A DNA stretch of 64,000 bases from the NCBI RefSeq assembly GCF_002252665.1, contig NZ_NQKZ01000002.1, positions 1 to 64,000 of the forward strand, read 5' to 3'. Positions within the stretch are counted from its first letter, which is position 1. Every line of letters starts with the position of its first letter. This DNA comes from Synechococcus sp. 8F6 (GTDB lineage: Bacteria; Cyanobacteriota; Cyanobacteriia; PCC-6307; Cyanobiaceae). This document shows positions 46,471-52,776 of this stretch, piece by piece. A model generated the notes under the pieces. It did no database searches and was not told where the DNA came from. It saw only the letters and a program-made list of their open reading frames with translations. Position numbers and translations under genes: made by a program.

Positions 46471-46857
46471 ATGGACAGCAACCGCGACCGGCCGATGGAC
46501 CAGGAGAAGTGGAGCTGCATCAGCGGTTGCGGGGCCTGCTGCCGCCTGGATCCGAGCCTGCGGCAGGAGGCCATCGACGCCCTCAGCCCCGCTCAGCAGG
46601 AGCAGTATCTGGCGATGGTGGGCGCCGATGGCTGGTGCATTCACTTCAACACCGGCTCCCGCAGCTGCCGGATCTACGCCGACCGCCCCGATTTCTGCAA
46701 CGTCGCCAACCTGGTCAAGCTGTTTGGTTCGCCCGAGGACCCCGGCGCCGGCGACCGCCTGGCGATCGGCTGTTGCCTCCAACAGATCCGCAGCGAATAC
46801 GGAGGCCGTGGCAGGGTGATGCGGCGCTTCCGGCGGGCCATCCGACAGCGCCCATGA
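46471..46857 (+). CDS. YkgJ-family cysteine-cluster protein
   Basis: A 128-residue protein with the YkgJ zinc/iron-binding pattern: CISGCGACCRLDP (about 16-28), then CIHFNTGSRSCRIYADRPDFCNV (about 56-78) and CC (about 101). Eight or nine cysteines are expected to bind metal. Function in cells is unknown. ATG 46471 is preferred; ATG 46495 (MDQEKWSC) is an alternative. Its stop overlaps the start of the GDT1-like gene as ATGA. Confidence 0.88.
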   Translation: MDSNRDRPMDQEKWSCISGCGACCRLDPSLRQEAIDALSPAQQEQYLAMVGADGWCIHFNTGSRSCRIYADRPDFCNVANLVKLFGSPEDPGAGDRLAIGCCLQQIRSEYGGRGRVMRRFRRAIRQRP

Positions 46858-47231
46858 GCACGCCCATGAGCACTCCCATGAGCAACGACAGCGAGCTCCC
46901 CAAACCCGCCCCAGCCGGCACCTGGGGTGCGGTCTTTTTGACGACCTTCACCACGGTGTTCCTGGCAGAGCTGGGCGACAAGACCCAGCTCGCCGCCCTG
47001 CTGCTGTCGGCCCAGTCGGGACGTCCGGTGGTGGTGTTTGTGGGGGCCTCCCTGGCCCTGATCAGCTCCAGCCTGGTGGGGGTGCTTCTGGGCCGCTGGC
47101 TGGCGCGGGTGATGCCGCCGCAGCAGCTGGAACGCCTGGCGGGAATCCTGATGGTGGCCCTGGGGCTCTGGCTGGGCCGTCAGGCCGTGCTGGGGCTGGT
47201 GCCCTCTCCCTCCGAACTCCCCCTCAGCTGA
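46854..47231 (+). CDS. Half-size GDT1/UPF0016 cation exporter subunit (first copy)
   Basis: A 125-residue protein with three membrane spans and one copy of the family motif ELGDKTQLAALLL (about 38-50). Full-length UPF0016 proteins (TMEM165/GDT1, cyanobacterial Mnx) carry two such motifs in one chain and export Mn or Ca. Here the second half is a separate gene right behind. The first 10 codons repeat ATGAGCAC(G/T)CCC, giving three in-frame ATGs (46854, 46866, 46878). Expected to sit in the thylakoid or plasma membrane. Confidence 0.88.
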   Translation: MSTPMSTPMSNDSELPKPAPAGTWGAVFLTTFTTVFLAELGDKTQLAALLLSAQSGRPVVVFVGASLALISSSLVGVLLGRWLARVMPPQQLERLAGILMVALGLWLGRQAVLGLVPSPSELPLS

Positions 47232-47237
47232 ACGACC

Positions 47238-47579
47238 GTGTCCGCCCTGCCGCTCGCCCTGCTCGCATCCACCTTCGTCACTGTGTTCCTGGCCGAATTG
47301 GGGGACAAGACCCAGCTGGCCATCGTCACCATCAGCGGCACCTCGACCCGCCCCGGGGCGGTCTTCGCTGGTAGCTCCCTGGCTTTGGTGCTGGCCAGCC
47401 TGCTGGGGGCAGCGGCGGGCGGATCCCTCTCGGCCGTGATCCCCACCAATGCGCTGCAACTGGCGGCCTCGGTGGGCTTCCTGGTGATCGGCGTGCGGCT
47501 GATCCAGCGCTCCAGCGGCGAAGAGGGCGAAAAGACCGTCGCGGCGGCCGCCGCGGCTGAGGATCCCTCAGCCGACTAA
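47238..47579 (+). CDS. Half-size GDT1/UPF0016 cation exporter subunit (second copy)
   Basis: A 113-residue protein with the second ELGDKTQLAIVTISG motif (about 20-34) and three spans, then an Ala/Glu-rich tail. With the gene six bases upstream it would rebuild a two-motif transporter as a heterodimer. GTG start at 47238. Confidence 0.88.
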   Translation: MSALPLALLASTFVTVFLAELGDKTQLAIVTISGTSTRPGAVFAGSSLALVLASLLGAAAGGSLSAVIPTNALQLAASVGFLVIGVRLIQRSSGEEGEKTVAAAAAAEDPSAD

Positions 47580-47717: not shown

Positions 47718-50063
47718 ATGAAGTTCACGGTCGCCGACCTGCTCGACCAGCTTCCCGCCCATGAAGCCCTGCCACTGACCAAGCTCGAAAAGGCCCTTGG
47801 CCTGAGCCAGAAAGCTGAAAAGCAGCAGCTGCAGATCGGGCTCGACGGACTCACCAAGCTGGGGCTGGTGGAAATCAGCGATGCCGGCATCGCCCGGCGC
47901 GAGGACCCCGAGCTGATTCCCGCGCGGCTGCGCTGCTCCAGCAAAGGCTTCTGCTTCGCCCTGCGGGAAGACGGCGGCGAAGACATCTACATCCGCGATC
48001 ACCAGCTCAACCACGCCTGGAACGGCGATAGGGTGCTGGTAAAGGTGATCCGCGAAGGCGGACGGCGCCGCTCTCCGGAAGGGGGCGTGCAGTGCATCCT
48101 CGAGCGGCACACCACCTCGCTGCTGGCCCAGGTGGAGCAACAGGAGGAGCGGTTGGTGGCCACCCCCCTCGACGACCGGCTGCTGACCGCTGTGGAACTG
48201 CCGGCCGGTGATGCCACCCATCTCGACAGCGAGCAGAGCTCGGTGGTGGAGGTGCTGGTAGACCGCTATCCAGTGGGCCAGTTTGCACCCCTAGGCCACG
48301 TGGCCCGGTGCCTGCCCGTGAACGGCGGCGAGGCCGCCGACCTCGATCTGCTACTCACCAAGCACCGGCTTCACAACCGTCCCCAGCCCCCTCGGGCCAC
48401 CCTCAAGGCCCTGGCAGCCAAAGAGCGCACCGACCTCACCGGCCAAGCAGCCCTGCTGCTGGAACCGTGGAGCGGCAAGGAAGCCCCGGGACTGCCGGCC
48501 CTGGCCCTTGAGGAGCGTGAAGGCGGCTGGACCCTGTGGGTGCATACCCCGGCCATCGCGGAGCGCTTCGCCAACGGCACCGCCCTCGACGCCTGGCTCC
48601 GCAACCAGGCCGATGCCTACTGCGTGGGCCGACAGTGGCTGCCCCTGCTCAGTCCAGCCCTGGCCAAGGCCAGCGCCTTCAAGGTGGGCGAGGTGCAGGC
48701 AGCCCTGTCGGTGAGCCTGGAGCTCAGCACCGACGGCAAGCTGGAGCACTACCGCTTCTGCCGCAGCCAGATCCAGCCGGTAGCCGCCGCGGGCCTTGAA
48801 GCCCTGACCGCCCTGGAGGATCGCAAGCCCAAGAGCCGCACCGTGCCGGCGGCCCTCAAGGGACTTAAAGATCAGCTGCCCCTGCTGGAGCAGCTGATCG
48901 CTGTCACCGGCCTGCTGCGTCAACAACGTCAGGCGGCCGGCTCCCTCGACCTCAACCTGCCGCTGCCCGCCATCGACAGCCTCGGCGACCTGGCGGTGCC
49001 AGGTCCTGATGCTCCCCTGGAGGGCTGGATGGTGACCCTCGAACCCCACCATCCCCTGGCGCTGCTGCGCGAAGCGGTGCTGGTGGCCGAGCAGGCCCTG
49101 GGCCAGCACCTCCAGACCCTCGAGCTGCCAGCGGTTTACGCCACCAACGCCCCCGCCGACGCCAACGACCTCAACGACGTCGCCCGCTCGGCCCTCGCCC
49201 TCGACATCCCCCTCGAATTGAGCGAGGAGGGCAACGCCAGTGGGGCCGAACTGGCGGCCGCCTTCGCCGGCACCGATCGCAGCCGGCCTCTGCAGCAGCA
49301 GCTGCAGGCCATCCTCAAGCCGATTCAGCTGAGCAGCGCCCCCGGCGCCCATGCCCTATCGGGTTGGCTGGAAGAGGATGCGGCCCTGGCCCCGTGGTGC
49401 TGCCCCACCCTCCATTACGCGGACATCTGGAACCAGCAGCTGCTGGTGCTGCTGCTCACCGAGGGCAAGGATCGCCCAAGCGTGCGCCACAAAACCACCG
49501 TCGACCTGGCCTCCGATGCCTGCCACGGCGCCATCGACTGGCCGCTGCTGGCCCCCAGCCAGCTCACCCCCTTCCTGGAGGCCCAGGAGCATGGGCTGGT
49601 GCAACGCCTCAATGGCCGGCGCCGTTTCCTGGCCGAACTCCAGGCCGACCTGCTGGCGATGCTGCAGGCCCGCCAGGCCGAGCCGCTGGTGGGCCAGGTG
49701 CTCCCTGGTGTGATCAGCGGCGTGCAGAGCTACGGCTTCTTTGTCGAAGTCCCCCCCTCCCAGGTGGAGGGTCTGGTGCACGTCAGCTCCCTCAAAGACG
49801 ACTGGTACGAATACCGCTCGCGCCAGAACAGGCTGGTGGGACGCAAGAACCGCCGCACCTACATGCTCGGCGACCAGGTGGAGGTGGAGATCCAGAAGGT
49901 GGATGCCCTGCGCCATCAGATCGATCTGGCCGTGGTGCTACCCGAAGGCGTGATGGCCGACGGGGACGGGCTGGCCGAGGGGGCCGATGACGCCGATGAC
50001 GCCCGCGCTCTCGAACATGACCACGATCCGTTTGCGCCGATACCGGTGTTGAGCGAGGCCTGA
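47718..50063 (+). CDS. RNase II/R-family (RNB) protein lacking catalytic aspartates
   Basis: A 781-residue protein with the layout of RNase R: helix-turn-helix (1-60), cold-shock-like segments (about 65-205), an RNB domain (about 236-600) and a C-terminal S1 domain (about 660-745, VISGVQSYGFFVEVPPSQVEGLVHVSSL). The RNB signature TID-x2-DAKDFDDAL is absent: where it belongs (about 245-262) one reads LLLEPWSGKEAPGLPAL, with no Asp. The second active-site block, normally SPIRRYADL-N-Q, reads CPTLHYADIWNQQLL, without the two Arg. The fold is kept (WVHTPAIAERFANGTALD, LSLELSTDGKLEH). So it is a likely RNA-binding pseudonuclease. ATG 47718 is preferred over 47688. Confidence 0.9.
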   Translation: MKFTVADLLDQLPAHEALPLTKLEKALGLSQKAEKQQLQIGLDGLTKLGLVEISDAGIARREDPELIPARLRCSSKGFCFALREDGGEDIYIRDHQLNHAWNGDRVLVKVIREGGRRRSPEGGVQCILERHTTSLLAQVEQQEERLVATPLDDRLLTAVELPAGDATHLDSEQSSVVEVLVDRYPVGQFAPLGHVARCLPVNGGEAADLDLLLTKHRLHNRPQPPRATLKALAAKERTDLTGQAALLLEPWSGKEAPGLPALALEEREGGWTLWVHTPAIAERFANGTALDAWLRNQADAYCVGRQWLPLLSPALAKASAFKVGEVQAALSVSLELSTDGKLEHYRFCRSQIQPVAAAGLEALTALEDRKPKSRTVPAALKGLKDQLPLLEQLIAVTGLLRQQRQAAGSLDLNLPLPAIDSLGDLAVPGPDAPLEGWMVTLEPHHPLALLREAVLVAEQALGQHLQTLELPAVYATNAPADANDLNDVARSALALDIPLELSEEGNASGAELAAAFAGTDRSRPLQQQLQAILKPIQLSSAPGAHALSGWLEEDAALAPWCCPTLHYADIWNQQLLVLLLTEGKDRPSVRHKTTVDLASDACHGAIDWPLLAPSQLTPFLEAQEHGLVQRLNGRRRFLAELQADLLAMLQARQAEPLVGQVLPGVISGVQSYGFFVEVPPSQVEGLVHVSSLKDDWYEYRSRQNRLVGRKNRRTYMLGDQVEVEIQKVDALRHQIDLAVVLPEGVMADGDGLAEGADDADDARALEHDHDPFAPIPVLSEA

Positions 50064-50066
50064 GCC

Positions 50067-50723
50067 ATGACCCCTGCGGCCGGAAGCGGGCCGGTGGTGC
50101 TGGCTGTCTCCGGCGCCTCGGCTCAACCGCTGGCGCAGCGGGCCCTGCAGCTGCTGCTTGAGGCCGGCGAGTCGGTGGAGTTGGTCACCTCCCGCGGCGC
50201 CATTGGCGTGTGGCAGGCGGAGCTGGGCCTGAGGGTGCCCTCGGAGCCTGCGGCCCAGGAAGCGTTCTGGCGCGAGCGCACCGGTGTCCGCTCCGGCCAG
50301 CTGCGCTGCCACCGCTGGAACGACCAAGCTGCCGGCATTGCCAGCGGCAGCTTCCGCACCCGCGGCATGGTGATCCTGCCCGCCTCGATGGGCACCGTTG
50401 GTCGCATCGCCTCCGGCGTGGCTCTGGATCTGGTGGAGCGCGCCGCCGATGTGCATCTCAAGGAGGGACGCCCCCTGGTGATCTGCCCACGGGAAACACC
50501 CTGGAGCCTGATTCACCTGCGCAACCTCACAACCCTGGCCGAGGCCGGCGCCCGCATCGCCCCACCGGTGCCCGCCTGGTACCACCAACCCCAGACCATC
50601 GACGACATGGTTGATTTCCTGGTGATCCGGGTGTTTGACGTGCTCGGCTACGAGCTCGGCAGCCTGCGCCGTTGGCAGGGGCCGCCCCACCAGCCAGGAT
50701 CCCCGGACGACCCTTCCGCCTAG
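50067..50723 (+). CDS. ubiX: UbiX-like flavin prenyltransferase
   Basis: A 218-residue flavoprotein that prenylates FMN for UbiD-type decarboxylases. LAVSGASAQPLAQRAL (FMN phosphate loop), VTSRGA, AGIASGSFRTRGMVILPASMGTVGRIASG, LKEGRPLVICPRETPWSLIHLRNL and PAWYHQPQTIDDMVDFLV are in place. It follows the RNB gene after three bases. Confidence 0.92.
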   Translation: MTPAAGSGPVVLAVSGASAQPLAQRALQLLLEAGESVELVTSRGAIGVWQAELGLRVPSEPAAQEAFWRERTGVRSGQLRCHRWNDQAAGIASGSFRTRGMVILPASMGTVGRIASGVALDLVERAADVHLKEGRPLVICPRETPWSLIHLRNLTTLAEAGARIAPPVPAWYHQPQTIDDMVDFLVIRVFDVLGYELGSLRRWQGPPHQPGSPDDPSA

Positions 50724-51255: not shown

Positions 51256-51657
51256 GTGAGCGAATCCGCCCAGCCAGCCGCCAAAGCCAAGCCACCGGCC
51301 CCGGAAGACCAGCCGTTTGCCACGTTTGTGCCCGAGCTGCTGCTCCCCGCTTTGGCTGAGGAGATCCAGGGGTACGGCGGTCCGGCCCCCGAGCTGGCCT
51401 TCGAGCAAGGTCCGATGCCCGTGGTGGGCGCGGACTGCTGGATGGTGAAAGGCGAGCTGCCCGGGGAGCGGCGTTTCTGGCTGTGCTTCACCACAGCGGA
51501 CATCAATTCCCCCAAAACCGTGGCCGTGGCCGAAGCCGGCAGTGAGCCGAGCCTGCTGGAGTCCTTTCTGATCGATGAGAAGAAAATGAGCCTGGCGCTG
51601 CTGGTATCCCGGCTGGTGCAGCGGCTGAACGGTCAGAAATGGCTGGGCCCGAACTGA
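51256..51657 (+). CDS. DUF2996 conserved protein
   Basis: A 133-residue protein with a GTG start. FVPELLLPALAEEIQGYGG, LPGERRFWLCFTTADINSPKT, EPSLLESFLIDEKKMSLALLVSRLVQRLNGQKWLG match the cyanobacterial DUF2996 family. The first 25 residues are disordered. It lies just before acsF. Confidence 0.85.
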   Translation: MSESAQPAAKAKPPAPEDQPFATFVPELLLPALAEEIQGYGGPAPELAFEQGPMPVVGADCWMVKGELPGERRFWLCFTTADINSPKTVAVAEAGSEPSLLESFLIDEKKMSLALLVSRLVQRLNGQKWLGPN

Positions 51658-51705: not shown

Positions 51706-52776
51706 ATGGTTTCTCCCGCCGCACTTGCCAGCCCAGCTGCACCGGCCATCAAGGATCCGGTCAAGGACACGATCCTGACCCCGCGGTTCTACACCACGGA
51801 TTTCGACGCCATGGCGGCGATGGATCTGCGCCCCAATGCCGTTGAGCTGGAAGCGATCTGCGAGGAGTTCCGCAAGGACTACAACCGCCACCACTTCGTG
51901 CGCAACGCGGAGTTTGAAGGCGCCGCCGACAAGCTCGATCCTGAAACCCGCCAGGTGTTCATCGAGTTTCTGGAGCAGAGCTGCACCTCAGAGTTTTCTG
52001 GCTTCCTGCTCTACAAGGAGCTCAGCCGCCGCATCAAAGACAAGAACCCCCTGCTGGCGGAGTGCTTCGCCCACATGGCCCGTGATGAAGCCCGCCACGC
52101 CGGCTTCCTCAACAAGGCCATGGGTGATTTCGGCCTGCAATTGGATCTTGGCTTTCTGACTGCCAGCAAGGCCTACACCCACTTCAAGCCCAAGTTCATC
52201 TTCTATGCCACCTACCTGAGCGAGAAGATTGGCTACTGGCGCTACATCGCGATCTTCCGTCACCTCGAGAAGAATCCCGACAGCAAGATTTTCCCAATCT
52301 TCAACTTCTTTGAAAACTGGTGCCAGGACGAGAACCGCCACGGCGACTTCTTCGACGCCCTGATGAAGGCCCAGCCCGACACGGTGCGTGGCCTGACCGC
52401 CCGCCTCTGGTGCCGCTTCTTCCTGCTGGCGGTGTTCGCCACCATGTATGTGCGCGACGTGGCCCGCAAGGAGTTTTATGAGGCCCTGGGCCTGGATGCC
52501 CGTGACTACGACAAGTACGTGATCGCCAAAACCAACGAAACGTCCGCCCGGGTCTTCCCGGTGGTGCTGAATGTGGAGCATCCGAAGTTCTACACCCGGC
52601 TGGAGCGGCTGGTGAGCAACAACACCAAGTTGAGCGAGGCCGATGCCAGCTCGGCTCCGGCCCCGATCAAGGTGCTGCGCAAGCTGCCCTATTGGATCGC
52701 CAATGGCGCCGAGATGGCCAAGCTCTATTTGATGGCCCCGATCCGCAGCGAGCAGTTCCAAGCCTCGGTGCGCTGA
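51706..52776 (+). CDS. acsF: Mg-protoporphyrin IX monomethyl ester oxidative cyclase
   Basis: A 356-residue di-iron enzyme that closes the fifth ring of chlorophyll using O2. The ferritin-like ligand pairs are in [39 protein letters not shown] and [14 protein letters not shown]. Standard length; N-terminus [17 protein letters not shown] as in oxygenic phototrophs. Probably expressed as its own unit; the stop is followed by tldD after 44 bases. Confidence 0.97.

Follow-up and report, generated by a model that had tools for sequence, protein, structure and literature searches.

Zam is a cyanobacterial protein of the RNase II/R (RNB) family with a degenerate active site and two redox-active cysteines, C73 and C79, according to Thomas et al. 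2022 (PMC9145284). Deletion of zam, or substitution of the cysteines with serine, leads to slower growth, less phycocyanin and an altered PSI:PSII ratio, and C73S reportedly has the same phenotype as the deletion in PCC 7002, the one strain from which the redox-dependent role in photosynthesis is described. The purified PCC 7002 protein is recorded there as showing neither nuclease activity nor RNA binding, with aggregation as a caveat, and an RNase E model for Zam is put forward. In Anabaena, alr1240-alr1241-alr1242 form one transcription unit, Alr1242 being a 221-aa hypothetical protein, and a review (PMC10989914) cites reports that Alr1240 binds RNase E and stimulates it, and that it degrades unstructured RNA as well.

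The window analysed here, a stretch of 64,000 nucleotides from Synechococcus sp. 8F6, carries an open frame at 47718-50063 on the plus strand, running from an ATG at 47718 to the stop at 50063 and encoding 781 residues. Its product is, with near certainty, a picocyanobacterial (Cyanobium/Synechococcus-type) ortholog of Zam with catalytic loss. A tree of 39 Zam and 9 Rnb proteins split the two groups at 100/100 support and placed the window protein in the picocyanobacterial Zam branch, every Zam row scored higher against P0001 than against the Rnb of the window genome, and the window protein has cysteines at exactly residues 73 and 79, as in published Zam. It scored 175.5 bits against the curated RNase R equivalog TIGR02063 (cut-off 597.85), a miss that carries little weight because the active Rnb of the same genome also falls below, at 159.1 bits. 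Across the sampled phylum, convincing Zam matches fell within the photosynthetic class, and one genome of another class matched weakly (E 1.5e-4). Zam was present in 39 of 40 relatives with the frame open in nearly all; a genome of the same class in 1,150 contigs gave no Zam match. One record titled as a Bifidobacterium breve MAG (CALPNT020000003.1) contains a picocyanobacterial zam of 70% identity and is mislabelled or contaminated. Since a Zam with a degenerate site and C73/C79 was described in 2022 (PMC9145284), the family and its dead nuclease site are already known, and the observation in the window is correct and mostly known. Beyond the 2022 paper, the details that may be new are limited to the loss in steps, the residues that replace the active site in picocyanobacteria, the Zams without a complete cysteine pair and the connection to Alr1240 drawn from gene order. 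Our literature search returned no experiment on any picocyanobacterial Zam and, among open-access sources, no paper on a Prochlorococcus Zam.

Gene order bears on the identity of Alr1240. The window reads recJ, a gene for what we take to be a ClC-type channel, a CxxCxxCC protein gene, two GDT1 genes, zam, ubiX, a small ORF, DUF2996, a gene presumably of the acsF type, and tldD. A ubiX-type flavoprotein gene (50067-50723, plus strand) lies directly downstream of zam and is a conserved neighbour; DUF2996 (51256-51657, plus strand) is likewise conserved in the neighbourhood, and the acsF-like gene (51706-52776, plus strand), with a Rubrerythrin-type di-iron domain, recurs there in many picocyanobacteria. 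Of the 71 named picocyanobacterial loci whose flanking sequence was long enough, 70 have ubiX after zam; so do at least 16 of the 43 genomes from other cyanobacteria, the latter count being a lower bound because most flanks span about 500 bases. Just upstream, a pair of neighbouring half-size genes for GDT1, a divalent cation/proton antiporter, occupies 46842-47579, and 77 of the 80 named loci gave a GDT1 match. All six examined loci of family f22, whose genomes are large and which we infer to be Nostocales-like, have zam, ubiX and then a hypothetical gene of 213-273 aa (about 220), the 213 being cut by the end of the locus. Because this order matches alr1240-alr1241-alr1242, and Rnb sits beside rpsR instead, gene order suggests that Alr1240 is a Zam. 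The same identification is stated by Thomas et al. (PMC9145284). Its importance lies in the activities reported for Alr1240, binding and stimulation of RNase E as well as RNA degradation, whereas the purified PCC 7002 Zam was inactive: the reports conflict unless some Zams retain residual activity.

The architecture expected of Zam, two cold-shock domains (CSDs) followed by RNB and S1, was found by Pfam and in the predicted structure. Pfam placed OB_RNB at residues 70-125, RNB at 237-581 (E 4.8e-35) and S1 at 657-738, all over cut-off; the CSD2 model was barely over cut-off and overlapped CSD1, and the structure model has a second set of strands within 134-200. All features lie on the plus strand: CSD1/OB_RNB spans residues ~67-131 (47916-48110), the CSD2 region residues 132-236 (48111-48425, also supported by alignment conservation), the RNB domain, its fold retained and its catalytic residues gone, residues 237-581 (48426-49460), and S1 residues 657-738 (49686-49931). 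CSD1 and S1 are the most conserved parts of Zam, both by alignment conservation and by dN/dS. An AlphaFold2 model built from 48 picocyanobacterial sequences reached a pLDDT of 88.6 and a pTM of 0.86, with only residues 745-781 below 50. The winged-helix-like region predicted at residues 1-66 (47718-47915) comprises helices 5-11, 20-26 and 32-47 with strands 51-60; these three helices and short beta hairpin are consistent with the N-terminal HTH proposed from the letters alone in an earlier note on this DNA, whose description of an intact 781-residue frame with RNB fold and S1 domain also holds.

As a whole explanation, including its identity, we read the window protein as a regulator of RNA turnover that is non-catalytic, switched by redox state and probably works through RNase E, with a probability of roughly 0.6; the RNase E/redox mechanism taken by itself has about an even chance. 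In this mechanism, Zam would regulate RNA turnover without catalysis, CSD1 and S1 would make its contacts with RNA and/or RNase E, the C73-C79 pair in the RNA-binding loop of CSD1 would link these contacts to the photosynthetic redox state, and an intact second RNase II would supply enzyme activity beside it. The literature describes contact with RNase E and control by redox state for relatives, and we infer both for the window Zam. Counting against a purely non-catalytic role in all Zams, and in conflict with it, is the reported degradation of unstructured RNA by Alr1240 (PMC10989914). The lack of RNA binding by purified PCC 7002 Zam, with its aggregation caveat, and the Zams without a full cysteine pair described below also weigh against the proposed mechanism.

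The predicted model has the RNase R fold (Foldseek E 1e-43 to 1e-44, VIA Z 34-35), its best structural matches being 5xgu (Z 34.0, 602 residues, 3.4 Å) and 8cdu (Z 35.3, 619 residues, 5.4 Å). Further down the match list, yeast Ssd1 (7am1) aligns with Z 29.0 over 604 residues at 4.4 Å and 15% identity in the structural alignment. Zam could instead be an mRNA-binding translational regulator like Ssd1, in which a dead RNB scaffold holds CSD and S1 domains that bind a set of mRNAs (e.g. those for phycobiliproteins) without RNase E. Ssd1 itself lost catalysis, and its RNA binding moved to a conserved patch on the surface (PMC8934651); conservation in Zam is focused on CSD1 and S1, and zam mutants make phycocyanin more slowly (PMC9145284). 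We nevertheless consider this unlikely, though the strongest of the alternatives: the same paper records no RNA binding by purified Zam, subject to the aggregation caveat, the Anabaena protein is reported to bind RNase E (PMC10989914), and Ssd1, so distant in sequence, descends from eukaryotic Dis3L2. Of the earlier suggestion of an RNA-binding or translation factor, only part is therefore established, and RNase E is the better-supported partner.

The earlier note had located the loss of the two catalytic motifs correctly, in residues 245-262 (48450-48503) and 561-575 (49398-49442). In alignment with canonical RNB proteins, the window Zam has E, P, L and P at the positions of D201, D207, D209 and D210 (E. 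coli RNase II numbering) in the degenerate Asp cluster, so that all four aspartates are indeed replaced, yet one replacement, the glutamate at D201, is another acid. The degenerate SPIRRYADL motif, which reads CCPTLHYADIWNQQL, has L and H for the two arginines, both gone as claimed. The combination of four catalytic acids and SPIRRY arginine typical of RNase R and RNase II is absent from the window protein.

This loss extends over the clade. The alignment comprised 92 Zam-type proteins taken from whole genomes (49 picocyanobacterial and 43 from other cyanobacteria) and 18 canonical RNB proteins. In 18/18 canonical proteins each of the four positions held an acid and both arginines were present, while all four acids were kept in 0/49 picocyanobacterial and 0/43 other Zams; a sequencing artefact is rejected because the loss is clade-wide. 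In the picocyanobacterial rows, D207 is Pro in 49/49, D209 is never acidic, each row has at most one acid of four, and R500 is kept in 0/49, with His there in 34. In the other cyanobacteria, by contrast, 36/43 have an acid at D209 (27 Glu, 9 Asp), 39/43 keep R500, and three rows have three acids of four. A further 80 named loci, including Synechococcus WH7803 and RCC307, Prochlorococcus and Cyanobium strains, were degenerate in the same way, and two of them have Arg at R500. Intact acids in close orthologs, which the earlier note had named as evidence against its claim, were looked for and not seen in the 92 Zams and 80 named loci; its statement that both motifs were lost together stands for the picocyanobacterial family and fails for the whole clade, given the R500 and D209 counts above.

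The non-picocyanobacterial sequences that keep R500 and the D209 acid leave room for a residual or unconventional nuclease that degrades RNA via a rearranged site, as does the RNA degradation reported for Alr1240, a Zam by gene order (PMC10989914). Such an activity is improbable, however, with the invariant proline at D207, no acid at D209, the most critical residue of RNase II (PMC3293843), and no more than one acid of four in picocyanobacteria, and with the purified PCC 7002 protein inactive (PMC9145284).

Judged from the alignment, the loss of the nuclease site looks stepwise: other cyanobacteria mostly keep the arginine and the acid at Asp209, and picocyanobacteria have lost both. A tentative scheme, which we consider doubtful, has two steps, with most of the metal site lost in all cyanobacteria and the arginine and acid then lost in picocyanobacteria, where a new ligand or redox site might have arisen. 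In the old active-site motifs of picocyanobacterial Zam, W251, W560 and H566 are family-conserved, as mostly are C561-C562 and C302; together with C126, the extra cysteine of CSD1, these residues could mark such a site.

The redox cysteines, at codons 47934-47936 (C73) and 47952-47954 (C79) on the plus strand, are each Cys in 89/92 Zam rows; their function is taken from PMC9145284. C73 is Ser, with C79 and C126 retained, in Synechococcus RCC307 (L179), two Ca. Synechococcus spongiarum loci (L203, L206) and L023. In two genomes of the same class (family f16, genus g25; G039 and G265), Zam has neither redox cysteine, LRFSRGSFWAI replacing LRCSSKGFCFAI; in G265 the gene is also divided between two reading frames near codon 240. 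The C73/C79 pair is therefore not universal among the Zam sequences compared. C126 in CSD1 (codon 48093-48095, plus strand) is invariant only within picocyanobacteria: it is Cys in 49/49 of their rows and 0/43 other Zams, and in 79/80 named loci, the remaining one being a gap. As C126 also accompanies the S73 variants, C79-C126 could serve as an alternative pair, a candidate suggested by residue conservation.

A second RNB protein exists in the genome. As the earlier note had proposed looking for, contig 34 encodes an intact RNase II with TIDDSDTRDIDD and SPIRRYADL, and rpsR sits just upstream of it; a genome-wide loss of RNB nuclease is ruled out by this enzyme. The active RNase II of two genomes (G004 and G015) is only 59% identical to that of the window genome, against 81-83% for their Zams, which may reflect either uneven evolution or rnb replacement. 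Outside the class but within the phylum, no RNB domain was found in eight genomes, and three genomes of family f41 have one canonical RNB apiece.

Selection was estimated by the Nei-Gojobori method with Jukes-Cantor correction between the window gene and 12 relatives, several dS values being near or above 1, which makes the ratios rough. Over the 12 pairs, dN/dS was 0.08-0.29 for whole Zam, 0.01-0.05 for CSD1, 0.01-0.12 for S1 and 0.13-0.36 for RNB; for active RNase II in the same pairs of genomes the range was 0.09-0.41, exceeding the Zam value in 11 of the 12. This comparison, also proposed earlier, finds purifying selection on zam that is very strong in CSD1 and S1, its strictest parts, and weaker yet present in the RNB domain. 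Together with the clade-wide loss, it rules out a sequencing error or recent pseudogene. That zam is a decaying, functionless gene kept by chance has a negligible probability and is already contradicted by selection and published phenotypes: its RNB domain does evolve faster than CSD1 and S1, but the gene is present in 39 of 40 relatives with an open frame in nearly all, is constrained more tightly than active RNase II in 11 of 12 pairs, and gives phenotypes when mutated in relatives (PMC9145284). The selected non-nuclease role first proposed from the letters is supported by the clade-wide loss, the intact RNase II, the purifying selection and those phenotypes.

Zam is an RNB pseudonuclease of bacteria with ties to photosynthesis and redox state. 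Picocyanobacteria carry out much of ocean photosynthesis, and since the nuclease site is most fully lost in their Zams, they would offer the cleanest test of Zam working without catalysis. The gene-order evidence for Alr1240 exposes a conflict among published claims of activity.

Among the closest known systems are the Zams of PCC 7002 and Synechocystis PCC 6803 (Sll1910), with which the window Zam shares the domain order, the dead RNB site, C73/C79 and a single copy alongside an intact Rnb; the picocyanobacterial proteins differ from these in lacking, as a rule, the SPIRRY arginines and in conserving C126, W251, W560 and N572-Q573. Cyanobacterial Rnb (Sll1290 type) shares family and genome with Zam but has intact motifs, forms a separate clade and adjoins rpsR. 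The RNase R enzymes of E. coli and B. subtilis (5xgu, 8cdu) share with the predicted model the overall fold and the CSD-CSD-RNB-S1 order but are active 3′-5′ exonucleases with the catalytic acids that the window Zam lacks. Yeast Ssd1 is, like Zam, an RNB-fold pseudonuclease with conserved cold-shock domains, but of independent origin, and the likeness seen here is structural only; we know of no redox cysteine pair in Ssd1.
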